20,047 bases of DNA from a virus: IMG/VR virus record IMGVR_UViG_3300031565_000493, positions 1-20,047 of that record; one strand, 5' to 3'. The notes under the pieces were generated by a model, which was not told where the DNA came from, did not search any database, and was given only the letters and a program-made list of their open reading frames with translations. The translations under genes and the position numbers were made by a program. Shown piece after piece: positions 1 through 15,617 of this stretch (position 1 is the stretch's first letter; each line of letters opens with the position of its first letter).

Positions 1-2337
1 GGTCCTCTTTCCAATATAGTTACAAAACAACGTTGGGGTGCCCATAGTCGAAATGTGTCTCTTGATTTTGCAGAAATGTCTGCACAGGCCTATGAGGGAC
101 TAATTGATTCTCCTCGTTTTCATATTTTCCAAGAAAAATTAGATTTAGCTAATGAGTTCAGAGTAGTTACTCTTGGGAATAAACCCATTTATTCTGCTTA
201 TCGTTGGGGTTCTCCATTTTTCCAAAAGGTTATTAATACTATTGGAAACTACCTACCAGCGGTAAAGCAATGGGCTAAAGAATCCCATTTCTTAGAAAGT
301 GCAATTCCCATAGAAGACAGTGCTCTCAGAGGTAGAGTAGAGGCTTTTGCAACTCGTGCAGCGAGTGCTCTTCCATATAAATTTGGAGCTTTTGATATTG
401 GTCTCACCAGAAGTGGTGAATTAAGTTTAATCGAAGCTCAACGTTATTTTGGAACTATCAAGAATCCTCTTGTTACTGAACGTGTTTTTGAAGCATTAAC
501 TGGCAAAACATCGAAGTTGGGAAAAGGAGCGATAGTTGGAGCGGCAGTCCTGGGGGCAGGTATTGCCTATGGTATATCTAACTTATTTTCTGGTAAAGAT
601 GATAACTATAATACTATTGAGGGCTTATCTCATAAAGGAATCGCCCAACATAAACGTAAACAACTGACAGATTTTGGTTCTGGATATGATAGAGCAAAGG
701 CTCTTGCTAAGATGGCTGTAGCCAGAAGATTTGGTAACTGGGTTATTGGAGGAACGGTAGAACAAACTGCTCGCGCTGGTCGACGTGGACTTTTTGCTAG
801 AGTTTCTGGATTTTTTAGAGAAAATAAGATATCAGTTTTACAACCTGGGTTTACTAGCATAGAGGCAAGTAAAGACATTTTAGAAAATACTGCTTTTTCT
901 CAACTACGTACAGAACTTACAGGAACAGGGAAAGCACGTATTGCACCAGTAGTTGGAATTCATAAACAAGGTATTCGAGAGATGATATCCTCTACTCTCG
1001 GTCGTCCTTTAACTACGCTAGAAAGAGAAAAGCTTGCGGTACCCTTTACTGTTTTTCATGAAACAGGGGAGGCTCAAAGTTTATTAAAAATTACTCAAAG
1101 AGAAGGAGTTTTTACTGAGCAGGCAGTAGGAAAAATTAGTTCCCGAGAAAGTATGATTACTGCTACTACTACAAGAGGAAAAGTTGCAGGACATCAAGGT
1201 TTTCTTCCAATTTTTAATGAGGGATATGCAGCGGCTCTTCATAGTAATGAAATGTTCACAATGGCTAAAAGCTATAGACTAGCTGAAGCTACTCGTGCAG
1301 TTGAAAATGCTTCTACTATTACACAGTTAAAAGAATCGGTTAACTATTTGAAAAAGACAGAACAGATATATGGAAATATAGAAAAGAAACTTATTCCAAG
1401 AATTGATGCAGTTCGTATTCCAAAACAAGGTGCCGCTATTAATCCTCTTGCTGGCGCTCTTCATCCTGGTGATCGGGGTATGGCTACACAAATTATTAGA
1501 GAAAAGACACCCTTTGGTTCTAAATTAGATAGAGTAAAAGTTTTTGCAGAAATGGCAGGTATGACTTTTGAAAAATTTACACAAAGTCCCAAATTTCTTT
1601 CACTTTTATCTGGATCTAAAGTTGTTAGAGAACTTGGTGCAGGTTCTTTTGGTAAAGCCTTTCTGAGAGAAACATCTATTGGTGGAGAGGCTTTTCAATT
1701 TGTTGAAAAAGTAGCACATGGAAAAGGTACTTTAAAAACTGCAGCAGAAACTGCCTTGGCTGGCGAGGCTGAAACTTTACAAAAATTAGCCGGGACTCCA
1801 GCGGCTCCATCTTTTTATGGATATGAAGCCAAAGGGAAAAGTTTTTTCTCTCGTTTGTTTGGAAAAAAACGATCCTCTCTTTATATGGAATATATTCCTG
1901 GAGAAGGGGCTGACAAAATATTTAAAAATAATCCTCTTGGAGATTCTTTACCTTTATCAGAAGAAGGTTCAAGAATGATAAAGGAAACAATAGCAACTGC
2001 CGCTGGAAGAGGAATCAAACATGCTGATATCGCTGGTAGAAATGTTATTTACAATTCACAGTCAAAAGAAGCTTTTTTAATTGACTGGGGCCTCATAGAA
2101 AGGGCAGCACCTACTCCAGAATGGACAACTCAAGCTATTAAAGAAAGTATGAAAGAAATGAAAAATTTAACCGCATTCACTGGAACGGCAAGTAGAGCTT
2201 CAGCTAAATTGACCAAATCAGCACAAGACCTTAGAATAGTTCAAGAAGAAGTGTGGAAAGGTGCTCATAGTGCCGGTAAACAACATGGTAGATTTGGAGT
2301 ACATTCGGTTCGTCAGCAGTCTAAACATGGAGGATAA
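1..2337 (+). CDS. Large phage protein with C-terminal protein-kinase-like domain (5' partial)
   Basis: The frame is open to base 1, so the gene starts outside the window; the GTG at 55 has no ribosome site and is not the start. Codons are counted from base 1. A Gly/Ala-rich hydrophobic stretch (about codons 176-198, GAAVLGAGIAYG) is membrane-like. Codons about 540-700 carry a compact protein-kinase pattern: glycine loop GAGSFGKAF (546-554), candidate ATP-binding Lys 570 in VEKV, hinge-like MEYIPGEG (629 onward), catalytic loop HADIAGRN (674-681, Asp 676 and Asn 681), and DWG in place of DFG (695-697). Only about 80 residues follow DWG, so the C-lobe is short, as in RIO/Bud32/WaaP-type kinases. 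The remaining long region is not recognised. The stop lies 6 bases before the next gene, whose ribosome site is inside this gene's end. The kinase fold is well supported by motifs; substrate and virion location are inference. Confidence 0.8.
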   Translation, partial: GPLSNIVTKQRWGAHSRNVSLDFAEMSAQAYEGLIDSPRFHIFQEKLDLANEFRVVTLGNKPIYSAYRWGSPFFQKVINTIGNYLPAVKQWAKESHFLESAIPIEDSALRGRVEAFATRAASALPYKFGAFDIGLTRSGELSLIEAQRYFGTIKNPLVTERVFEALTGKTSKLGKGAIVGAAVLGAGIAYGISNLFSGKDDNYNTIEGLSHKGIAQHKRKQLTDFGSGYDRAKALAKMAVARRFGNWVIGGTVEQTARAGRRGLFARVSGFFRENKISVLQPGFTSIEASKDILENTAFSQLRTELTGTGKARIAPVVGIHKQGIREMISSTLGRPLTTLEREKLAVPFTVFHETGEAQSLLKITQREGVFTEQAVGKISSRESMITATTTRGKVAGHQGFLPIFNEGYAAALHSNEMFTMAKSYRLAEATRAVENASTITQLKESVNYLKKTEQIYGNIEKKLIPRIDAVRIPKQGAAINPLAGALHPGDRGMATQIIREKTPFGSKLDRVKVFAEMAGMTFEKFTQSPKFLSLLSGSKVVRELGAGSFGKAFLRETSIGGEAFQFVEKVAHGKGTLKTAAETALAGEAETLQKLAGTPAAPSFYGYEAKGKSFFSRLFGKKRSSLYMEYIPGEGADKIFKNNPLGDSLPLSEEGSRMIKETIATAAGRGIKHADIAGRNVIYNSQSKEAFLIDWGLIERAAPTPEWTTQAIKESMKEMKNLTAFTGTASRASAKLTKSAQDLRIVQEEVWKGAHSAGKQHGRFGVHSVRQQSKHGG

Positions 2338-2343
2338 TATCTA

Positions 2344-2937
2344 ATGGCACTCACTAGTATGTGGAAAGGTTCAGGTGAGGCAGGTTTATCTTTAGGGAAA
2401 TTTCTGTTTGGTGGTAGTGTCCGACGTATTGGTGCCGGTGCAACTATTGGTGGTATAGTTGGCGGTATTAGAAATGAAGATAATTCCTCAACAGGTATGT
2501 TTCGTAGTATCGCTAGCGGTGCACTTGCTGGTGCAGGTATTGGCGCCCTAACTACACGTACTTCTCTTGATGTTGCAAAAGCGGCTGGGAAAAGAATTGC
2601 TAGTCAAGGTACCGCAGAATGGAGTTATCGAGCAGCAAAGGGAATCGGTCGTCACGGGTTCTCTGCTGCTGGAAAAGTCGGTCGTTTTGCTTGGAATCAT
2701 CCATATGCAACCACTGCTCTCGCAGGCGCGGGAATTGGAACTGTTGCCTTCGTGGGATCGGGTGTAGATAATAGTAGAATGAGTACCAATTCAATGTCTA
2801 GAATCGCCCAACAATCAGGTATCTCGTCTTCTGGATTTGAACCTGGAATGGGTGCAAGTGCTCGACAAGAAGAAAGACAAATGTTTATGGATAGTACCTT
2901 TGGTTTGACACAAGGTTTGCACAGAGGTAGACACTAG
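2344..2937 (+). CDS. Gly/Ala-rich membrane-like protein with glycine-zipper segments
   Basis: This 197-residue protein is not assigned to a named family. It has three small-residue-rich hydrophobic segments: GAGATIGGIVGGI near residues 31-43, SGALAGAGIGAL near 59-70, and TTALAGAGIGTVAFVG near 123-138. The repeated GxxxG spacing is typical of glycine zippers that pack or insert membrane helices. The first two segments are joined by a polar loop containing NEDNSS, which suggests a helical hairpin. The C-terminus is polar and ends in TQGLHRGRH. A GGAGG site at 2329-2333, inside the end of the kinase gene, lies 10 bases before the ATG and indicates co-translation. Role as a virion or ejected membrane protein is inference from composition and neighbours. 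Confidence 0.75.
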   Translation: MALTSMWKGSGEAGLSLGKFLFGGSVRRIGAGATIGGIVGGIRNEDNSSTGMFRSIASGALAGAGIGALTTRTSLDVAKAAGKRIASQGTAEWSYRAAKGIGRHGFSAAGKVGRFAWNHPYATTALAGAGIGTVAFVGSGVDNSRMSTNSMSRIAQQSGISSSGFEPGMGASARQEERQMFMDSTFGLTQGLHRGRH

Positions 2938-2947
2938 GAGAATGTAA

Positions 2948-3628
2948 ATGATAGGTCCACAGGAAACTTGGGGTCCGAACTTAGCTGGTACTGGTTGGAA
3001 TACTGGTTCTAATCGAGTTTGGGGATCTCTGCATCATCGTGTTCCTGGAATGGCTAGAGTGGGTAGTTCTGTGCGTTCCTATGCAGGAACCGCGATGCAC
3101 CAAGAAGCTATGAAATTTACCAAAGAGTCCTTTGGTATTGGAAAGGGACTAAGTCCACTTGGCAAATGGATGGGTCGCGGATTCGTCGGATTGTCTGCTA
3201 TCCAAGGATATCACGATGCCAAGAAGCAGGGCAAGAGTGGTGCTTGGGGTGCAACCAAAGGTGTTGCTCAATACGCCGCAATGAACTATGGATTTAAAGT
3301 AGCTACCAGGGCTCTTGGACTAGGTAGTACTGCTGGAGCTATTACTGCTGGTGTGGCTGTTGCGGGTTTAGCTCAAGTTGGAATGTTGACTCATATGGCT
3401 CAATCTGCTCAAGGTGGTGGATTAGGTCAGTTCTTAGCACGTCCTGCGGTCTACCAACATATGCGACAACGTGCTATGCTAGAGATGGGTCGTCCTGCCG
3501 TAGATCAGTTTGGGACTGCTGCAACAATGAGGCAAAGAAGTTTGGCAGCTATTCAAGATTCTAAATTAAATGGTAGAGTTGCTCTTGGAAATGAGGCGAC
3601 TCTTCTCTATCGTCCATATTTTAGGTAG
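2948..3628 (+). CDS. Hypothetical protein with Gly/Ala-rich hydrophobic segment
   Basis: This 226-residue protein has an N-terminal half rich in Gly, Trp, His and Arg, then a hydrophobic Ala/Gly segment near residues 125-150 (GSTAGAITAGVAVAGLAQVG). The C-terminal tail is basic and polar, with RQRSLAAIQDSKLNGR close to the end, a likely amphipathic helix. I do not recognise a named family. An AGGAG site overlapping the upstream TAG stop (2936-2940) precedes the ATG by 7 bases. It belongs to the same tight run as the kinase protein and the two other Gly-rich proteins, so a shared function in the virion or at the host membrane is plausible but not shown. Confidence 0.72.
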   Translation: MIGPQETWGPNLAGTGWNTGSNRVWGSLHHRVPGMARVGSSVRSYAGTAMHQEAMKFTKESFGIGKGLSPLGKWMGRGFVGLSAIQGYHDAKKQGKSGAWGATKGVAQYAAMNYGFKVATRALGLGSTAGAITAGVAVAGLAQVGMLTHMAQSAQGGGLGQFLARPAVYQHMRQRAMLEMGRPAVDQFGTAATMRQRSLAAIQDSKLNGRVALGNEATLLYRPYFR

Positions 3629-3639
3629 GAGGGATTATA

Positions 3640-4089
3640 ATGGTACGGGCACGGCCACCATCTCATTTAATTGGCGGGGGATTTAGTTGGGTTGCTGATA
3701 AACTATTACTTGCTGGCGCAGCTAGGTCTGGATCTACTTTAGGTTCCATATTCGGTCGAACAGGCGTTGCTGCTGCTGGTGCTGCGACAATGAATCCTTA
3801 TGCTAGAAGTGCTGCTTTAGGTGCTGGTGTTGGTGGAATGTATGGTGCCTTCTCAGATAATACAAGTATACTTGGTGGTGCTACTACTGGAGCGGCACTT
3901 GGATATGGTGGAAGGGTAGGTTGGCAAGCTGGTGGAATTGCTAGAAGGATGGGTGGCCTTACTAGTGGTAAGGCTTGGACCGCCATGGGAAAATATACTA
4001 AAGGACATATTGATAACACTCTTACTCGTGCATATAATCCGATTAGAAATCTCAAAGGATATGTCCCAAGAATAGCCCCGACTGGATAA
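3640..4089 (+). CDS. Small Gly/Ala-rich membrane-like protein
   Basis: This 149-residue protein is dominated by small residues. Its core has two glycine-zipper-like stretches (SAALGAGVGGMYGAF near residues 52-66 and GGATTGAALGYGG near 73-85) joined by the polar loop SDNTSIL. That layout resembles the first two segments of the gene at 2344, whose loop contains EDNSS, so the two may be distant paralogues. The C-terminal third is basic. A strong AGGAGGG site (3627-3633) overlaps the previous stop and precedes the ATG by 6 bases. It is the last gene before the terminase. Function unknown; membrane insertion or internal virion role is inference. Confidence 0.7.
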   Translation: MVRARPPSHLIGGGFSWVADKLLLAGAARSGSTLGSIFGRTGVAAAGAATMNPYARSAALGAGVGGMYGAFSDNTSILGGATTGAALGYGGRVGWQAGGIARRMGGLTSGKAWTAMGKYTKGHIDNTLTRAYNPIRNLKGYVPRIAPTG

Positions 4090-4094
4090 GGTGT

Positions 4095-6056
4095 ATGTCA
4101 ATAAATCTCAATCAATGTTCTGGTATCTGTCACAATTGTATTAAAGGCTATATAGGTAAACACAGAATTCAAAGGGGTCAGAATAAGACCTTTGAAGTCG
4201 AGTGTGATGGGATTCCTCTAAAGTATATACCAGATAGTATTCTTGCTTCTCTTGGTGGAGACACCTCCTCAATTACCGCAATGTTAAATCCAGTAACTTG
4301 GGCCAACAAGTATCTAGATTGGCATTGTATCGATCCTGATGGAGAAATTTGGAAACGAAAAACGGCCGAAGGTACTCTTCCTTCTGAATCTAGACCATAT
4401 GATCCCGTTTTAGCAAAACAGGGAAAGTCTATTTTTCATCGTCCATATCAAGCCGAAATGTTAACCTGTTCAAGTCGAAGAAAGATCTTTAGAATAGGAC
4501 GACAGGCAGGCAAGACGGAGGTGCTGTGTATTGCTATTTTGTATGCTTTGTGGACAAAAGAGAAATTTAAAATTGTTCTAATTGCTCCATATCAGTCCCA
4601 AATAGAAATGATTTTTAAAAGATTGTCAGATTCAATTCAGGGCAATCCCATGTTAAATAACTCTATTGCCCACAGTGTAAAGGCTCCTAGTTACAGGATA
4701 GAGTTAAATAATGGAAGTCAAATTGTAGGATTTACAGCAGGTACTCGATCAGGACAAGATGCTGGGGCTGCTCGTGGTCAACCAGCAAACATGTTAGTTT
4801 TTGATGAGGCAGATTATCTTTCTCCAAATGATATTGGAGCTACTCTTGCTACAATTGTTAACTCTCCAACTGCTACTGTATGGATGTCATCAACACCCAC
4901 TGGTCGTCGTGAGAAATTTTATGAAACCTGTCACAATCCGCTCTATAAGGAATTCTATTTTCCTTCTCAAGTAAACCCAAACTGGGGAGAATCTGAAGAA
5001 AAATATTACAGATCAGAATATACGGAAGAACAATATCGTCATGAAATTCTTGCTGAATTTGGTGAGCAGGAAGAAGGGGTCTACCAAGTTAAGTATGTTG
5101 AGGCAGCCCAAGCAAACTATACCTACGAACAAATGAAACCGATTCGTTCTTGGACCTATATGGTAGGTGTAGACTGGAACGATGTTAAAATAGGTACAAC
5201 TATAGCAGTAGTGGGATACAATCCTCAAGATAGTAAATTTAGAATAGTGGATAAGTATACTATTTCTAAGGGGGAACGTACTCAATTAAGTGCTTGTAAT
5301 AAAATAGCCGAGATTAATAGACTATGGTTTCCAGAATATATTTATGTAGATGAAGGTTTTGGAGCGACCCAGGTCGAGGTTCTTCATGAATTTGGGGCTC
5401 GTGCAGTTCAATCTCAGGGAGCCAATTCTCCAGATGCTAGATTGCGACAAATTGTAAAGGCTTATGGTTTTGGTAGAAGTATAGAAATTCATGATCTTTT
5501 TACTAAACAAATTATAAAAAAACCAGCTAAACCTTTCTTAGTAGAAAACTCTGTTCGTAGATTTGAAAGTTTGCAGATTCAATATCCTAAATCTGATAAA
5601 CATTATACGGAACAGTTACTTGGTTATACTATCCAGCGTGTTTCAATGACAGGTGCTCCAGTTTATCAAGCTAGCGAACGAGCGGGAGATCACTTCCTGG
5701 ATGCAGTAAATCTTGCCCTTGTGGCTTTCATATTGGAAAAAACTGCTTATGGTAAACCTACTTATAGTTGCGAAATTGCTATAGCTGGGAAATTTGGTGA
5801 TCCAGAGGGACCTAGTTTAAAAAATGATGTTGCAGAAAGAGTTTCTAAAAACCACTCTTTAAATAGAACTAGTTTTATAAGAGGAGAAGAAAACATTATT
5901 TCATCTGCCTCTCAGTTGCCAGCTAACAATACTAATAAAACACAGGTTCTTCCTTTGTGGTCTTGGCCAGGATGGTCTAGAGATTTACCAGCACCACAAT
6001 CAAAGAGTCACAATAATCGTACTAGACAATTTCGCCCCCGCCGTGTTAAGTTCTAA
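4095..6056 (+). CDS. terL: Terminase large subunit (packaging ATPase and nuclease)
   Basis: This 653-residue protein is the motor that pumps DNA into the prohead and cuts it. The ATPase domain has Walker A GRQAGKT (135-141), Walker B VFDEAD (235-240) and coupling motif SSTPTG (265-270). The RNase-H-like nuclease domain has acidic residues in GVDWND (Asp 360), YVDEG (Asp 419) and DHFLDAV (Asp 532, Asp 536). An N-terminal extension of over 100 residues carries a Cys cluster, C8-x3-C12-x2-C15 and C37, which could bind zinc and is not a usual part of the family. A basic tail ending in RPRRVKF follows the nuclease. The ribosome site is weak (AAGG at 4088-4091), 5 bases after the upstream stop, which suggests translational coupling. 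No small terminase subunit is recognisable in the window. Confidence 0.95.
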   Translation: MSINLNQCSGICHNCIKGYIGKHRIQRGQNKTFEVECDGIPLKYIPDSILASLGGDTSSITAMLNPVTWANKYLDWHCIDPDGEIWKRKTAEGTLPSESRPYDPVLAKQGKSIFHRPYQAEMLTCSSRRKIFRIGRQAGKTEVLCIAILYALWTKEKFKIVLIAPYQSQIEMIFKRLSDSIQGNPMLNNSIAHSVKAPSYRIELNNGSQIVGFTAGTRSGQDAGAARGQPANMLVFDEADYLSPNDIGATLATIVNSPTATVWMSSTPTGRREKFYETCHNPLYKEFYFPSQVNPNWGESEEKYYRSEYTEEQYRHEILAEFGEQEEGVYQVKYVEAAQANYTYEQMKPIRSWTYMVGVDWNDVKIGTTIAVVGYNPQDSKFRIVDKYTISKGERTQLSACNKIAEINRLWFPEYIYVDEGFGATQVEVLHEFGARAVQSQGANSPDARLRQIVKAYGFGRSIEIHDLFTKQIIKKPAKPFLVENSVRRFESLQIQYPKSDKHYTEQLLGYTIQRVSMTGAPVYQASERAGDHFLDAVNLALVAFILEKTAYGKPTYSCEIAIAGKFGDPEGPSLKNDVAERVSKNHSLNRTSFIRGEENIISSASQLPANNTNKTQVLPLWSWPGWSRDLPAPQSKSHNNRTRQFRPRRVKF

Positions 6057-7097: not shown

Positions 7098-8522
7098 ATG
7101 AATAAGAATGTTAAGCCAAAATTTGATTATTCCAATATTGATATTAATAATATCGATCCTGATAAGTTAAGTATTGGTGCCCCTCTTCAGGATTGTTCTG
7201 TTATAGCCAATGCTTTTGAGCGTGGTGCTCATGTCATTCCTACTGAGGCTGCCATATTTGCCACCATCTCTAGAACTCTACAGAATCATCAACAATTAAC
7301 TAATTCTCTTATTACAAGTATGTCTTCCTATTCAGTTACGCCAGTGACAACTGCCACTAGTCAGGCTGCTGCTTTTGGTAGTCAAGTTGATAGTGGTGTT
7401 GCTGCGACCACAGATAGTGGTGCTCAGGCGTTTACTCTTGGAATACAAAAATCTGTTTTGAGTGAAGGCGCAGGAAAAAAACTATTGGATACACTTCGTA
7501 ATTGTATTCCATGTGATATAAGATTAATGGCGTTACTGGAACTACATCCAAATTTAGATCTTTTGGGTGGTTTAAATAAATATTTAAAAGATTTACTATC
7601 TACACTCGATTTAACCATAGATTTACTCAATAATACCGATTCTTTTGGTGATTTGTGTTCTCTTCTCAATAGTTTATCTTTTATGTGTGTTCCAGACCTA
7701 CAGAGAATTATTGCCACTCTAATGTCCTTGTTTATGTTGGATGCAATTCAGTTAGATGATCTCATGGGTCTTTTACAGGGACTTATCGCGCCAATGTTCG
7801 CGCCCATTCTATTTACAATAACATCTCTTTTGGACCAGTTTGTAGCTCTTGTTACCAATCCTCTAACGTGTGTATTTAATTCAATTAACGTTCAATTGAT
7901 AACTAGAGGTGCGGGAATTCCTGCATATTCAACCAACAGTGGACCTCCTAGTCAACAGCAATTAAATAGTTCACTAAGTCAATTAGCCTCCCAATTGCAG
8001 GAGGCTACTTCTAGGATTCAGGGTAAATTAGACTTTTATGTAAAACAAGTTAAGGCATTAACAGGAGAAATGGGTAGTAATGATACGGCCTATCTTCGTT
8101 CAAAAATGAAATTATTACAGATAGTTCGTATGATTGTTTTTATTAAGGCTATTATTACCGCAATGATGAAAGGTCACGCTGCGTGTTCTGATTCTGGGAA
8201 ATCTCCAGAACTATCAGAACTTGATAATTTCTTCCAAAATTTCTTGTCTCCCAATAGTCCATTTGATATTTGGATAGATGACAATAGTCAAATACACTTG
8301 GATGAGAAAATCCCAAATAGAGACAAGGTCTTGCCTGATGGCCAAAATGTGATTCAATTTGAGGGGAAACCTTTAATAGACCCGACATTAGTACCAACAG
8401 TAGAAAAGATAATTTCTGGTCTTTCTCAATCTGTTCGCACAGTATCTCCATGCAAACTTGAAGCAAGTGTGGAGGATATGGAAAAGGTTAATCAAGGCAT
8501 TAAGGAACTTAACCAACTATGA
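7098..8522 (+). CDS. Long hydrophobic hypothetical protein between terminase and portal
   Basis: This 474-residue protein is not recognised. After a polar N-terminus and a Ser/Thr/Ala-rich stretch (about 70-115), it has a long Leu-rich, helical and hydrophobic core at about 140-268, which includes LMALLELH, SLLNSLSFM and PMFAPILFTITSLL. It has scattered cysteines, including CIPC at 136-139 and further Cys at 187, 197 and 258. A Gln/Ser-rich amphipathic helix follows near 288-325, then a second hydrophobic helix near 338-360 (IVRMIVFIKAIITAMM). The ribosome site TAGGA overlaps the previous stop, 7 bases before ATG. Its stop overlaps the portal start (ATGA), so the two are translationally coupled. 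It might be a virion membrane-active or internal protein; this is inference. Confidence 0.68.
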   Translation: MNKNVKPKFDYSNIDINNIDPDKLSIGAPLQDCSVIANAFERGAHVIPTEAAIFATISRTLQNHQQLTNSLITSMSSYSVTPVTTATSQAAAFGSQVDSGVAATTDSGAQAFTLGIQKSVLSEGAGKKLLDTLRNCIPCDIRLMALLELHPNLDLLGGLNKYLKDLLSTLDLTIDLLNNTDSFGDLCSLLNSLSFMCVPDLQRIIATLMSLFMLDAIQLDDLMGLLQGLIAPMFAPILFTITSLLDQFVALVTNPLTCVFNSINVQLITRGAGIPAYSTNSGPPSQQQLNSSLSQLASQLQEATSRIQGKLDFYVKQVKALTGEMGSNDTAYLRSKMKLLQIVRMIVFIKAIITAMMKGHAACSDSGKSPELSELDNFFQNFLSPNSPFDIWIDDNSQIHLDEKIPNRDKVLPDGQNVIQFEGKPLIDPTLVPTVEKIISGLSQSVRTVSPCKLEASVEDMEKVNQGIKELNQL

Positions 8523-10708
8523 AGTTATTTGGATTTGAAATAAAACGGCAGGTTGATGATGCAGAAATTACCATTCGTTCGGTAAAACCATCAACTATGC
8601 CAATTTCCAAGGTTCCTGAAATTAAAATTGCTACATTAAACTATGCTCAGCAATTTGCTGTTGCTCGTAGTCAGTTCCTAGATCCTGAATTTGATTTGGC
8701 AGAAGTTGGTAAAGTTCAAGATACAGAGTCCTATGTCCGTAGGTCCTTCGAAAAGAAAGAAGGACTCATGTTTAAGGAGGGTCTTGGGCTACGTGGTAGA
8801 AATAAGGATACTCTACGTTATGTAAAAACCCGCATGGCTCAAATTGCTAGAGCTTCCAATATTCCCACAATCTCCCTACTTAAGCGTACTGCGGAAAGTT
8901 TAATCCGGGTTTCTAATGCATACCTAGTTAAAGCTAGAGATATTGAAGCTTCTGGAGGAAAAGAAAGAGTAACCGCTAAAGGAAAAAAATTAAAACCTAT
9001 TGCAGGTTACTTTCCCGCGGCGCCCGAAACCATGTCTGTGGAGATAGATCCCGATACAGGTAGAATTGTTAAGTGGCGACAATCACTTCCTAATGGAAGA
9101 ACTAAAGAATTTCCTCCTGATGACGTTATTCACTTTCATATTGCCCGTAGAGAAGGTTTCCTCTTTGGTATCCCAACAACAGTTCCAGTACTGGACGATA
9201 TCCGCGCCCTACGTCAAATAGAAGAAAATGTTGAACTTCTTCTTTATCAGCACCTATTCCCTCTCTATCATTATAAGGTTGGTACAGAAACCGCTCCTGC
9301 TGGCAAAAATGAATTAGGTGTAAACGAAGTAGACCTTGTTAAGGAAGAAATTCGTTTCATGCCTGCTGAAGGTGCTCTAGTTACTCCAGAGCGTCATGAA
9401 ATTAAGGCTATTGGGGCAGAAGGTAGAGCCCTCAATGCCGAAGCCTACATTCAGCATTTTAAAAAACGTGTTCTTGCTGGTTTGGGTGTTTCTGAAGTAG
9501 ATATGGGTGAAGGGAGTACGGTTAATCGTGCAACTGCCACAACTCTATCTCGTGCTCTTATTGACTCTGTTAAGGCTATCCAAGACAGTCTAGAGGCTCA
9601 ATGGGATCATGCTGTTATCGCTGAACTGCTTCTAGAATCTACCTTTGGGGAAGATGTCCTAGAGGAAGACAATATGGTTCATTTGAAGTTCCATGAAATT
9701 GACATACAAAACAAAATGGAACAAGAAAAACATGCGACAGAAGTATTTAAAGCCAATGGTTATACATGGGATGAATATCGTAGCGAACTTGGATTAGAAC
9801 CGATTCCAGTACCAGAAGATCCTGAAGATCAGGATCCTAGTAAATATCCAGAATGGCACAATACCTATTGGAAGTTATTTGGAGAACCAGAGTCTCTTAT
9901 TAAGGCAGTAGATGAACCCTATAGTGCCGCTTCACAAGCTGCCGCCGCATCTCGATCCTCGGGTGTAACGAATCAGCAAATTCAAACCGCCCAAAAAACT
10001 AAAGAAACAACTGCTCAAAAAGAAGCAGAAGCTGACAAACAGACCAAAGTTGCGGTAGCAAGAGTTAGTCGAAGGCAACGACAAGATTCCTATATGTCTG
10101 AAACTTTTAGAGAGTTGGAAGCTGACACTATTCAGCGTGTTGAATTAGGTCTTCAGTCCACAGGTAACGTCAATTTTGAATACCTAATATCTCATGCTCG
10201 CACCTGGGCTACAGATGCCACTAGCAAACTCTATAGTTTAGCTATGATAGAATTTATTCGTGGATTTAACGATCACACTGGCCGGCGAAGTTATGAGGCC
10301 GAAACCTTAATCGCTCTTGGCAGAGATAGAATTAGAAATCGTGTAAGTAATTATACAGAAAGACTTGCGATTCAAACTATAAAACTTTTTAAACAACGAA
10401 TGAATAATAATACTAATGCAAACACTATGGAAGTTTTGCGTAATGCGTTCGATTCCACACGCTATCGAACTGATATGATATGGCCGACCGAATTATCGAA
10501 GGCTTACAATTATGGTCATCTGTTAGGAACTAGACTATTAGATGAGGTTGGCCTAGAACTAATATCTCATCCAGAAGGTTGCGAAGCTTGTCAGGCTGCT
10601 AATGGTAGAATTATTTCCTCTACTAACGCTGATATGAATGATGTACCCCCTCTTCATTCGAGTAGTCGTATGAAATTTAGAACTATTTATAGGAATAATC
10701 CTAACTAG
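8519..10708 (+). CDS. Portal protein with C-terminal MuF-like extension
   Basis: This 729-residue protein is the likely head portal, the dodecameric DNA gate to which terminase docks. Residues about 60-430 match phage portals in layout: early helices, a beta wing region with PxTG-like turns, GFLFGIPTTVPVLDDI (213-228), a long helix rich in ENVELLLYQHLF, then VLAGLGVSEVDMGEGSTVNRATA (318-340). After an Ala/Gln/Lys-rich linker (465-515), residues about 520-729 form a helical domain ending in CEACQAANGR (688-697) and VPPLHSSSRMKF (709-720). This resembles the C-terminus of Mu gpF-type minor head proteins (CxxC...G...PPxHxxCRC), but with the last cysteines replaced. The start overlaps the preceding stop (ATGA). 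Portal identity rests on overall pattern and position beside terminase and protease; the MuF part is less sure. Confidence 0.85.
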   Translation: MKLFGFEIKRQVDDAEITIRSVKPSTMPISKVPEIKIATLNYAQQFAVARSQFLDPEFDLAEVGKVQDTESYVRRSFEKKEGLMFKEGLGLRGRNKDTLRYVKTRMAQIARASNIPTISLLKRTAESLIRVSNAYLVKARDIEASGGKERVTAKGKKLKPIAGYFPAAPETMSVEIDPDTGRIVKWRQSLPNGRTKEFPPDDVIHFHIARREGFLFGIPTTVPVLDDIRALRQIEENVELLLYQHLFPLYHYKVGTETAPAGKNELGVNEVDLVKEEIRFMPAEGALVTPERHEIKAIGAEGRALNAEAYIQHFKKRVLAGLGVSEVDMGEGSTVNRATATTLSRALIDSVKAIQDSLEAQWDHAVIAELLLESTFGEDVLEEDNMVHLKFHEIDIQNKMEQEKHATEVFKANGYTWDEYRSELGLEPIPVPEDPEDQDPSKYPEWHNTYWKLFGEPESLIKAVDEPYSAASQAAAASRSSGVTNQQIQTAQKTKETTAQKEAEADKQTKVAVARVSRRQRQDSYMSETFRELEADTIQRVELGLQSTGNVNFEYLISHARTWATDATSKLYSLAMIEFIRGFNDHTGRRSYEAETLIALGRDRIRNRVSNYTERLAIQTIKLFKQRMNNNTNANTMEVLRNAFDSTRYRTDMIWPTELSKAYNYGHLLGTRLLDEVGLELISHPEGCEACQAANGRIISSTNADMNDVPPLHSSSRMKFRTIYRNNPN

Positions 10709-10766: not shown

Positions 10767-12875
10767 ATGGCTAATTACGTTCGTTTTTGGGATTCCGTAA
10801 ATATCGTACCTCTTGAGGACGGTAAAGACGATAAGGTTATTAAGGATCTATATCCCAATACGGGGCTGAGCGCGCAAACCGCCCCCCTGAGGGTTCGCAT
10901 TGCCGCTACTCATGCTGGTAGAATTACTCGCAATAATGGTCTCTATCTCCCCCACAAGATGAGAGATGCGGTACCTTCTTGGACTACACCATTTCCTAAA
11001 CCAGTACAGGTTCATCACGATAATGATCAGGCTCCCATTGGTCGTGTTGTTGCTGCTAGATATGTTGACTTGTCTCAGGGTGTTAGAACCCTACTTGCAA
11101 CACAAAATGGTTTAAAAGATGACGTTAATTCCCTGGAATGGTTAGACAAATTAGTTGAAGGTAGTCTTTCAAAAGACGAACTTATTAATACTGTGTGTGA
11201 TCATATTTTAACAGATGCTCATTTTACCGAAGATCCCAACTACGAAGGTTTGGGATATATCGAATTAATTGCTGATATTGCGGATCCAGATGCTAAACAA
11301 AAAATTCTGGATAAAAGATATCTTACTGGTTCCACTGGTTCCACTACCAATAGTGCTGTTTGTTCAAAATGTAAACAAGATTGGGCTGAGGCAGGAAGGT
11401 GCGATCACGAGCCTGGAAAGATGTATGATGGCATAAAAATGGTTCTAATAGCTGGTGATCTTTTATATGACGAGTTTTCTCTTGTCAATAAACCAGCCGA
11501 TCCCAAATCAATGATTATTGAAATTAGTGTTAACGGAATCACAGATTCTGTTATAATTAATTCTCAGGAGGAACGAAAAATGTTATTTAAAGAAGCCTTC
11601 TCATTAGTATCAGGAAATGAGAAATATAGTGTATTGGATAAACTTGAGGACAAGGTTAAGACTATTATAGATAGCAACCAAGACCTCACAGAAGAAAAAC
11701 TTTTCGAATTCCTTGATCTCCAACTACCTTCTCCTGCGGTTGTTCCGGAACCAGTAGTTATTCCAGTTGCCGACGCTGTAGTTGTAGATCCCAATGATCC
11801 CAAAGTTATCCTGGGAGATGAGTATACAAGTATTGTTGGTGACGATTCTTGGGGTGTTGAATATGCCAAGATGGTTGCTGAATGTATTAGTGGTCAACTC
11901 AAGAATGAGGATGGCTCTTCGCTAGAAGCTATTAAGGACGCAAAACTTTCTGCTGAACAGCGTAAAAAGATGTCAAGTTCGACATTCTGTGGTCCTGACC
12001 GAAGTTATCCAGTTAATGACTGTAATCATGCCAAGTCAGCGATGGCATATGCAAAGAAAAATAATGCTGGATCAACGGTTGTAGCCTGTATCAAACGTAA
12101 GGCTGCGCGACTGGGTTGCCCATTTAGTACCGAAAAGAAGTCCGATAGTGTTCAGGATTTGGGACAATTTATTCCTGACTACTTTGATTCGCTTTCTGAT
12201 GATGAACTAGTTCAAATGAATATGGGCCTTCATACCTCTCTCAAAGAGAGAGATTTGCAGTGTAATTGTGATTCTGTTGTAAATGAAAAGAAAATTTCTG
12301 AACTACAAAATCTTTATCAAACAAAAGAAAAAGAATTAAAAGAAATATCAGATAAACAAGTTAGTGAACTAAAGAATAGTCTAGTAGAAAAAGAGAAACG
12401 TCTAGAGTCGTCTCGTAATGAAAATAAGTATCTTCAGAGTGACATAGATAACATCATGGATTCACTAGCTTCTGCGACACTAGAAGTGCGCGCCGCAAAT
12501 CTTGCTCATCTTGTGGACCTCACTCTTCTCAACGGTGTAAAGAAAACTAGAGAAGAAGTTTCACTAGAATTAAAAGATAAAGGACTCGCTGAAGTCAAGA
12601 CAGTACTAGATGAGTTAACTCATAAGGTTGACATTCAAAAAATTAGCGATACTCTTAGTTCTGGGCTTACTAACAGAAATCCAACAACTACAGTAGTAGA
12701 CCCAACGGTTCTAGTAGATAATTCAAAAAAGAAAACAGTAGAAGGTTTACTACAACTTAACGAAAATCAAAGACTGAAGGCTTTGCAGATACGAACTAAT
12801 TATGGACCAGCAGCAGAGGAAAAATTCATACAAGACTCACTTGCTGTTCTAAATAGTAACTCTGAAAAGGAATAA
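10767..12875 (+). CDS. Prohead protease-scaffold fusion protein
   Basis: This 702-residue protein probably combines the capsid maturation protease with the scaffold. Residues 1-260 look like the protease: PVQVHHDNDQAPIGRV (79-94) supplies a candidate catalytic His 83/84, and TGSTGSTT (187-194) a candidate Ser. Directly after comes a zinc-type motif, C199-x2-C202 with C212-x-H214, then DEFSLVNKPADP (235-246), typical of prohead proteases. A second Cys module (about 394-451; FCGPDRSYPVNDC, cysteines 408, 419, 441, 451) resembles small DUF6582-like domains. A charged coiled coil (about 505-565) and a helical C-terminus fit a scaffold. The start is chosen from GAGG at 10753-10756, 10 bases before ATG, after a 58-base A-rich spacer. 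An internal in-frame start at 11580 may yield the scaffold alone. The exact protease family and active Ser are uncertain. Confidence 0.82.
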   Translation: MANYVRFWDSVNIVPLEDGKDDKVIKDLYPNTGLSAQTAPLRVRIAATHAGRITRNNGLYLPHKMRDAVPSWTTPFPKPVQVHHDNDQAPIGRVVAARYVDLSQGVRTLLATQNGLKDDVNSLEWLDKLVEGSLSKDELINTVCDHILTDAHFTEDPNYEGLGYIELIADIADPDAKQKILDKRYLTGSTGSTTNSAVCSKCKQDWAEAGRCDHEPGKMYDGIKMVLIAGDLLYDEFSLVNKPADPKSMIIEISVNGITDSVIINSQEERKMLFKEAFSLVSGNEKYSVLDKLEDKVKTIIDSNQDLTEEKLFEFLDLQLPSPAVVPEPVVIPVADAVVVDPNDPKVILGDEYTSIVGDDSWGVEYAKMVAECISGQLKNEDGSSLEAIKDAKLSAEQRKKMSSSTFCGPDRSYPVNDCNHAKSAMAYAKKNNAGSTVVACIKRKAARLGCPFSTEKKSDSVQDLGQFIPDYFDSLSDDELVQMNMGLHTSLKERDLQCNCDSVVNEKKISELQNLYQTKEKELKEISDKQVSELKNSLVEKEKRLESSRNENKYLQSDIDNIMDSLASATLEVRAANLAHLVDLTLLNGVKKTREEVSLELKDKGLAEVKTVLDELTHKVDIQKISDTLSSGLTNRNPTTTVVDPTVLVDNSKKKTVEGLLQLNENQRLKALQIRTNYGPAAEEKFIQDSLAVLNSNSEKE
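11566..11571 (+). promoter_or_regulatory. Strong internal ribosome binding site (AGGAGG)
   Basis: A full AGGAGG consensus lies inside the protease-scaffold gene, 8 bases before the in-frame ATG at 11580. The codons it occupies encode Gln-Glu-Glu, so it could be chance, but its strength, spacing, frame and position at a domain boundary together point to real use. Confidence 0.65.
11580..12875 (+). CDS. Putative nested scaffold protein from internal in-frame start
   Basis: ATG 11580 is codon 272 of the protease-scaffold gene and in the same frame. It is preceded by a perfect AGGAGG with 8-base spacing. The product would be 431 residues: the Val/Pro-rich linker, the Cys module with FCGPDRSYP, the coiled coil and the helical C-terminus, but not the protease. 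The position falls just after the protease's last recognisable motif (NKPADP), as expected if protease and scaffold are needed in different amounts. The same layout is established for lambda C/Nu3. The ribosome site is seen directly; translation from it is inference. Confidence 0.65.
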   Translation: MLFKEAFSLVSGNEKYSVLDKLEDKVKTIIDSNQDLTEEKLFEFLDLQLPSPAVVPEPVVIPVADAVVVDPNDPKVILGDEYTSIVGDDSWGVEYAKMVAECISGQLKNEDGSSLEAIKDAKLSAEQRKKMSSSTFCGPDRSYPVNDCNHAKSAMAYAKKNNAGSTVVACIKRKAARLGCPFSTEKKSDSVQDLGQFIPDYFDSLSDDELVQMNMGLHTSLKERDLQCNCDSVVNEKKISELQNLYQTKEKELKEISDKQVSELKNSLVEKEKRLESSRNENKYLQSDIDNIMDSLASATLEVRAANLAHLVDLTLLNGVKKTREEVSLELKDKGLAEVKTVLDELTHKVDIQKISDTLSSGLTNRNPTTTVVDPTVLVDNSKKKTVEGLLQLNENQRLKALQIRTNYGPAAEEKFIQDSLAVLNSNSEKE

Positions 12876-14363: not shown

Positions 14364-15617
14364 ATGGAATTCAAATTAGAAGATCACCAAACTGTGGAAG
14401 AGTTCCGCTGGATCTGGGACCATAGTGGTCGCGTCGGCAATGAAAAGCAGATTGAGTTAAAGGATGCCCTCGCGGTACCTAATGCTCCCGTGCTTTTCCC
14501 CAAAGTTATTCAAAATATTGTAAGAGAAGCTATTGAGCCTCTCTTGGTTGGCACTAGTCTACTCCAACGTATTAATTATAGTGGCTATGGTCAGACTATT
14601 ACCTTCGGTAGTACGGGTGCTATTTATGCCGCCGATATTCCCGAGGAAGGTGAATACCCAGAACGTTCCCTCCAGGTTGGTCCTGGTACGGTAACTGCGA
14701 GCATCGGTAAAAGCGGTGTCGCGGTAAAGATTACTGAGGAAATGGTTCGTTACAGCCAGTATGATGTAATTGGTATGCATCTACGTGCTGCTGGTCGCGC
14801 GCTTGCTCGTCATAAAGAAGAGAAAGTCTTCAAGATGATCCGTAAGCTTGGTGCCACTGCTTTTGATAACCTTCAACCCGGCAAGGCGATCTTTGGTGTC
14901 TGTACGGGTCGTGATATGCAGGGCAATCCCAATGGTGCAGTTACCATGGACGATGTTTTCGATGCTTGGGCGCAGGTAATGGCTCAGGGATTCATGGCCA
15001 ACACCTTACTAATGCACCCACTTACTTGGACAATGTTTATTAAAGATGCTCAACTTCGAGCGTTTGTTCAAGCTAATGGCGGTGGCACTATGTTTGCCAA
15101 TTGGACAGGTAGTGCTCAACCTAAGTTCTGGCAAGGTGGTACTAATGGTCCAAGTTCAGGTATGAATGTTCTGCCTGGTCAGACTAGTGGTGGAGTTACT
15201 GCCCCACACGGTTTAACTCCAACTCCGCTCCTAGAATATCCCCAGGATATTAATTCGGCTCCACAACTACCGAATTACCTTGGTACTCCACTTCGTATCA
15301 TAGTTAGTCCATTTGTTAACTACGATCCACGACGTAAACTAACTGATATCTTCATGTTCGATAGTAATGAACTTGGAGTACTAGTTGTTGATGAAGAAGT
15401 TACGGTAGAGGAATTTGACGATCCTTCTCGTGACCTTCGTAAACTTAAACTTCGCGAACGTTATGGAATGCAAATGCTCAATGAGGGTCAGGGTTGCGTT
15501 TCCCTCAAGAATGTACACGTAGTCGCGAATGAGATTGTACTTCCTGCCCAGACCATGATTGATGTTTCAGGTAGTAGGCTTGCTAAGATAGCGCCTGATG
15601 CTTCTCTCTCACTCTAG
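14364..15617 (+). CDS. Major capsid protein (HK97 fold)
   Basis: This 417-residue protein builds the icosahedral head shell. The order of elements fits the HK97 fold: a helical N-arm; PKVIQNIVREAIEPLLVGTSLLQRI (46-70); a beta-hairpin loop region with ADIPEEGEYPERS (about 89-101); strand and long spine helix KITEEMVRYSQYDVIGMHLRAAGRALARHKEEKVF (about 122-155); and an A-domain part with TMDDVFDAWAQVMAQGF and LLMHPLTWTMF (about 195-225). The C-terminal part returns to beta strands (ELGVLVVDEEVTVEEFDD). Strong ribosome site, smooth codon use and the terminator right behind it fit very high expression. It follows the protease-scaffold gene, as usual. N-terminal maturation cleavage is possible, but no site is obvious. 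Confidence 0.9.
   Translation: MEFKLEDHQTVEEFRWIWDHSGRVGNEKQIELKDALAVPNAPVLFPKVIQNIVREAIEPLLVGTSLLQRINYSGYGQTITFGSTGAIYAADIPEEGEYPERSLQVGPGTVTASIGKSGVAVKITEEMVRYSQYDVIGMHLRAAGRALARHKEEKVFKMIRKLGATAFDNLQPGKAIFGVCTGRDMQGNPNGAVTMDDVFDAWAQVMAQGFMANTLLMHPLTWTMFIKDAQLRAFVQANGGGTMFANWTGSAQPKFWQGGTNGPSSGMNVLPGQTSGGVTAPHGLTPTPLLEYPQDINSAPQLPNYLGTPLRIIVSPFVNYDPRRKLTDIFMFDSNELGVLVVDEEVTVEEFDDPSRDLRKLKLRERYGMQMLNEGQGCVSLKNVHVVANEIVLPAQTMIDVSGSRLAKIAPDASLSL

Follow-up and report, generated by a model that had tools for sequence, protein, structure and literature searches.

A minimal protein-kinase domain among the exchangeable enzyme modules of a large phage protein encoded upstream of the terminase gene

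The window, that is the whole stretch of DNA analysed here, is a viral record of 20,047 bases whose genes form one co-directional array. By sequence, it comes from a lineage of large phages with Acinetobacter phage ME3, Bacillus phage KLEB27-3 and Moorella phage MTATph1 as distant kin; these three are the named relatives of its terminase large subunit (TerL) and portal, at 31-39% identity. The first open reading frame (ORF; 1-2337, frame 1, 778 aa) is open at the left edge of the window and, being cut 5' by the contig end, leaves the N-terminus of its product unseen. Since only a few bases separate the genes from this ORF to TerL, they are likely to be expressed as a single late transcription unit. 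The original prediction had placed a kinase-like domain at the end of a very long protein with a membrane-like segment, among structural and not early genes. The description of the protein was right in kind, as relatives of the truncated product range from 457 to 2085 aa; the hydrophobic segment is present, over 300 residues ahead of the kinase; and the gene setting was borne out and is conserved in relatives. The features of the window are as follows.

1-495, + strand: C-terminal part of an ATP-grasp-like ligase module, its 5' end lost at the contig edge (homology, fold search, EFRVVT...AFDIGLT...LIEAQRYFG)
526-588, + strand: Gly-rich hydrophobic, membrane-like segment directly before the linker (17-residue hydropathy 1.85)
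586-687, + strand: linker motif FSGKDDNYNTIEGLSHKGIAQHKRKQLTDFGSGY (pattern and motif HMM)
703-1470, + strand: middle module with an HExxE sequence (HETGE, 1057-1071)
1441-1539, + strand: degenerate second linker copy (NPLAGALHPGDRGMATQIIREKTPFGSK), immediately preceding the kinase (matched weakly by the motif HMM, 8.5 bits, E 0.11)
1537-2235, + strand: minimal protein-kinase domain (Pfam, PADLOC, phmmer, alignment, AlphaFold2, Foldseek, PDB profile)
2257-2286, + strand: C-terminal tail KGAHSAGKQH, the window version of a tail common to the related proteins whatever their last module
2344-2937, 2948-3628 and 3640-4089, + strand: three small Gly/Ala-rich ORFs, conserved 3' of the first gene (synteny in many loci)
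4095-6056, + strand: TerL (phrog_2, E 8e-35; tblastn to the Moorella, Bacillus KLEB27-3 and ME3 phages)
8519-10708, same-direction array: portal
10767-12875, same-direction array, after the portal: homologue of a KLEB27-3 gene annotated as prohead protease
14364-15617, same-direction array: major capsid protein

No match to the small ORFs at 2344-4089 was obtained in a PHROG search. One of the small Gly/Ala-rich proteins encoded before TerL, dn2 (window 2344-4089, L005:3835-5286; related loci are numbered with an L), has homologues in KLEB27-3 and MTATph1. The 702-aa protein encoded at 10767-12875 shows partial homology to the prohead protease-annotated gene of KLEB27-3 and contains an internal Cys-containing PHROG_16160 segment.

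Upstream of the kinase, the truncated module at 1-495 matched the Pfam R2K_2/R2K_3 models weakly (E 0.06-0.18, 12-14 bits versus a cut-off of 26) and is 35-41% identical to the complete modules of L002 and L016. When a low-confidence AlphaFold2 model of the L002 module (pLDDT 42.8) was compared with the PDB, all 50 of the 50 matches listed were ATP-grasp enzymes (best E 5e-4). Regarding the hydrophobic segment, a hydropathy of at least 1.6 was found before 10 of 67 motif copies versus 1.3% of control positions. The middle module gave no match in a Pfam search; its HExxE sequence makes it a possible metallopeptidase-like module. The degenerate linker copy aligns with a clear copy preceding the L003 kinase. 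In a leave-one-out search the C-terminal tail was recovered in about 15 of 26 proteins, the window's own copy being weak (1.4 bits). A likeness of this tail to the GLHRGRH ends of the small downstream proteins was seen by eye and is not significant.

The catalytic landmarks proposed for this ORF were all confirmed by position in frame 1: the Gly loop GAGSFGKAF (1636-1662), a VAIK-type Lys570 (1708-1710), HADIAGRN (2020-2043) with the catalytic Asp676 (2026-2028) and Asn681 (2041-2043), and DWG (Asp695; 2083-2091). An alpha-C Glu589 lies at 1765-1767. The Pfam Pkinase model matched 1501-2337 with an E-value of 7.6e-5 and 22.7 bits, below its gathering score of 31.7, and ABC1 matched at E 0.005. 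The PADLOC kinase models matched the domain with E-values reaching 9.3e-10, phmmer against PDB kinases gave E 9e-5, and the profile of an alignment of 15 kinase domains (A2; 20-28% identity) retrieved 1866 PDB sequences below 0.001 with Rio2 as the best match (E 3.5e-14). In a reversed-sequence control the best E-value was 4.1, versus 1e-8 to 1e-117 for the real matches. Across the 15 sequences of A2, the Gly-loop Gly (G36) and Lys570 (K58) are invariant and the alpha-C Glu589 (E77) is nearly so; the Gly loop, Lys, alpha-C Glu and hinge Glu were absent from the pattern by which relatives were picked. Asp676 (D164), Asn681 (N169), Asp695 (D183) and Gly697 (G185) are also invariant in all 15, positions conserved partly by choice since the relatives were picked by a D...N...DxG pattern. 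The expected conservation thus held for Lys, D...N and DxG but failed for the HxD His, which is Asn in some relatives. A chance kinase-like pattern is ruled out by the Pfam and PADLOC matches, the conservation in A2, Foldseek and the PDB profile. As judged from these matches and from the predicted structure, the end of the cut-off gene encodes a true protein-kinase domain, as originally predicted, and the domain is probably active.

The AlphaFold2 model of the kinase domain (pLDDT 80.5, pTM 0.73) has the anticipated two-lobed fold with a short C-lobe: an N-lobe, the catalytic loop and DWG are followed by a single long helix of declining confidence and then by the linker and tail. The interval first proposed, 1621-2091, stands as the core and not as the full extent, the modelled domain covering 1537-2235. 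The full C-lobe of canonical eukaryotic-type Ser/Thr kinases, with its activation segment and helices F-I, is absent from the model, in which the C-lobe past DWG is missing or unrelated. In Foldseek searches of the PDB, the best structure match was CK2 alpha (E 1.8e-8, prob 1.00), with TMq values of 0.50-0.58 over about 174 columns for the PDB matches; viral kinases were matched as well. RIO, ABC1 and CK2 share the superfamily fold with the window kinase, and the ABC1 model passes its cut-off in several related kinases; the window kinase, with its minimal C-lobe, is about equidistant from these three families and is assigned to none of them. It resembles Kinase-PolyVal in having a truncated C-lobe with the active-site residues retained. 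In Kinase-PolyVal kinases, however, the conserved His and Asp are separated by an insert (PMC5512222), which the HADIAGRN of the window lacks, and the Kinase-PolyVal Pfam model gave no match at E<=1; on both grounds, membership of this family is ruled out.

The first gene of the window occupies a fixed slot. The order upstream CxxC gene, slot protein, dn1, dn2, dn3, TerL, portal holds in every locus with readable flanks, the small genes not being detected in all. About half of the slot proteins lack a kinase. A total of 16 kinase domains were found, in 15 proteins, that of the window included and that of L028 being weak; the L016 kinase passes the Pkinase cut-off with 42 bits and others pass those of ABC1, APH or RIO1. 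Most slot proteins with a readable start carry an N-terminal DEDD exonuclease, and one is predicted for the missing N-terminus of the window protein. Eight slot proteins have an SNase domain above cut-off (one pair being near-duplicates), P0003 has an RNase_H_2 (DEDD) domain, and HExxH/HExxE sequences occur in the segments between linkers (11/11 versus 0.9/3.4 in shuffles). A DnaJ module matched weakly. Modules read by eye as GNAT-like (L010, L014), PD-(D/E)XK-like (L017, L031, L042, L044), ART-like (L008, L042) and caspase-like (L037) are all below the Pfam cut-offs; the last of these (L037:6266-7567) contains SGHG...ESCNAR, appears caspase/CHAT-like and gave no match in a Pfam search.

In an all-against-all comparison, shared modules were found at different positions and in different orders. 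The L042 and L033 TerL proteins are 85.8% identical and the C-terminal tails of their slot proteins nearly so, whereas their kinases are 23.7% identical and their module counts differ. In L039 (1185-2567), two diverged kinase domains (26% identical) lie in tandem with a linker copy before each. Therefore, the ends and linkers stay while the payload turns over. By these sequence comparisons, the kinase is one of many interchangeable enzyme modules strung together with a repeated 30-residue linker.

This linker, whose interdomain pattern is FSGKDDxYNTIEGLxHGGxAxxxRKxxTDFGSG, was first seen as a repeated element in the L002 and L003 relatives. A pattern scan of 2.9 million viral contigs returned 38 stretches, two of which (L026, L035) look like chance, a count obtained with exact spacing, by which variants are missed, and in collections that may omit close relatives. 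The pattern had 0 matches in 100 shuffles, and a motif HMM located about 75 copies in about 32 non-redundant environmental phage proteins, with 1-5 copies each. Among 50,697 named phages none was found to carry the motif, and the P0001 and L016 proteins had no match when searched against named phages. The two matches in 257 Gb of bacterial and archaeal genomes were both due to chance, with little of the motif outside the pattern. A literature search on the linker returned no description. Synonymous and third positions of the copies are near saturation while the residues are conserved, so that the linker is conserved at the protein level. Copies within a protein are slightly more alike (0.63 versus 0.59, reached in 15 of 2000 permutations); a recent duplication as the origin of the copies was rejected, synonymous sites being near saturation except in L022. 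In that locus (L022:2517-5072), two linker copies are nearly identical in DNA and their flanks are duplicated, a recent internal duplication being likely. The linker may serve in docking, as a translocation unit or as a processing site.

Iyer et al. 2017 (PMC5512222) had already predicted multidomain proteins that bear kinase domains and are packaged in virions, and proposed capsid packaging and injection for these polyvalent proteins. Like them, the slot proteins are large and multidomain, their kinase, peptidase and nuclease modules can be exchanged, and their phages have a portal and terminase; they too hold several distinct enzymatic domains per polypeptide in a phage with a portal-terminase system. 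The slot proteins nevertheless differ from the published set in their kinase group, the repeated NTIEGL...FGSG linker, the DEDD N-terminus and the fixed slot before terL, and none of the matches at E<=0.01 in the scanned slot proteins was to a PolyVal-named Pfam domain. The kinase delivered with a virion had been expected to be unusual; given the earlier prediction of packaged multidomain kinase proteins (PMC5512222), this part of the claim held only in part, and it is the repeated linker and module swapping that are more unusual.

In the cultured Acinetobacter phage ME3, the corresponding interval, from the conserved upstream gene to TerL, contains ME3_11, which has an N-terminal DEDDh exonuclease (E 4e-7) and a C-terminal hydrophobic stretch and, unlike the slot proteins, neither the linker motif nor a recognised payload; this suggests that the payloads are later additions to a slot protein of older origin. 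A resemblance of the ME3_11 tail to the GRxH tails was noted by eye only and is not significant. The text of the phage 0305phi8-36 paper does not name the genes of this slot.

We consider it fairly probable that the first ORF of the window represents the 3' portion of the gene for an effector polyprotein of the polyvalent type, which is packed into the head and leaves it together with the DNA. The protein would be made late, together with terminase, portal and capsid, and would be loaded through its conserved parts, namely the N-terminal DEDD core seen in relatives, the Gly-rich hydrophobic segment, the NTIEGL...FGSG linker and the GRxH tail. Arriving with the DNA in the next host cell, its ATP-grasp ligase, possible metallopeptidase and minimal kinase would attack host proteins as infection begins. 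Phosphorylation of host targets by the kinase would parallel that by T7 gp0.7, a newly made early gene product and likewise a phage kinase with host proteins as its presumed substrates; the window kinase would instead be delivered. T7 gp0.7 is early and stand-alone, whereas the window kinase is a fused module in a packaging and head cluster. The multi-enzyme architecture, the synteny and the polyvalent precedent are consistent with virion delivery, and packaging and injection of the slot protein both seem reasonably probable. More tentatively, the linker might be a dedicated cargo element for docking, threading or release, such that an enzyme placed between two copies would be loaded and injected.

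Within this payload reading, it is rather doubtful that the linker is a maturation-protease site at which the polyprotein would be cut into effectors inside the head. The linker copies do lie between modules, the gene following the portal shows homology to the KLEB27-3 gene annotated as prohead protease, and the IE-G of the linker resembles the sites of Glu-specific prohead proteases. However, about 30 residues are conserved, up to FGSG, beyond the needs of a cut site, and several copies have Q, R, M, P, K or D in place of the Glu; because it varies in this way, a strict Glu-specific cut at the linker appears unlikely from the sequences.

Two other explanations dispense with delivery. It is unlikely that the protein is an assembly or packaging factor working in the producing cell on prohead or terminase, with the kinase phosphorylating phage structural proteins: the gene lies immediately 5' of the three small ORFs and TerL, and the DEDD exonuclease core is common and also found in ME3, but modules differ between close phages with similar TerL, which would not be expected if the protein were an enzyme central to assembly, the several modules of nuclease and HExxH type are ill-suited to assembly, and about half of the slot proteins do without the kinase. 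Still less probable is a superinfection-exclusion or competitor-directed toxin, acting late and unpackaged, whose modules would hit other phages or mobile elements in the infected cell. Although the toxin-like set of modules, with nucleases among them, and their fast exchange would suit such a role, it leaves the fixed slot in the packaging array and the hydrophobic and linker architecture unexplained, and an immunity gene was not recognised in the neighbourhood.

If the protein is injected, as we favour, host phosphorylation would start at entry without waiting for early transcription, and this one genomic slot would illustrate how injected effectors diversify in large phages. Should the linker be a cargo element, the slot protein would be a natural plug-in platform for protein delivery, its payload turning over more rapidly than other parts of the genome. 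With the linker conserved, the delivery idea is open to test, and the 30-residue motif can be used to search environmental phages for anti-host and anti-defence enzymes not yet known.

The window TerL is without an intein-like insertion; in relatives, such insertions interrupt the TerL gene at two different catalytic sites, lying within RIGRQ/CGKSE, at Walker A, in the TerL of L002 (11741-14797) and before CEEA, at Walker B, in that of L003 (12269-15490).
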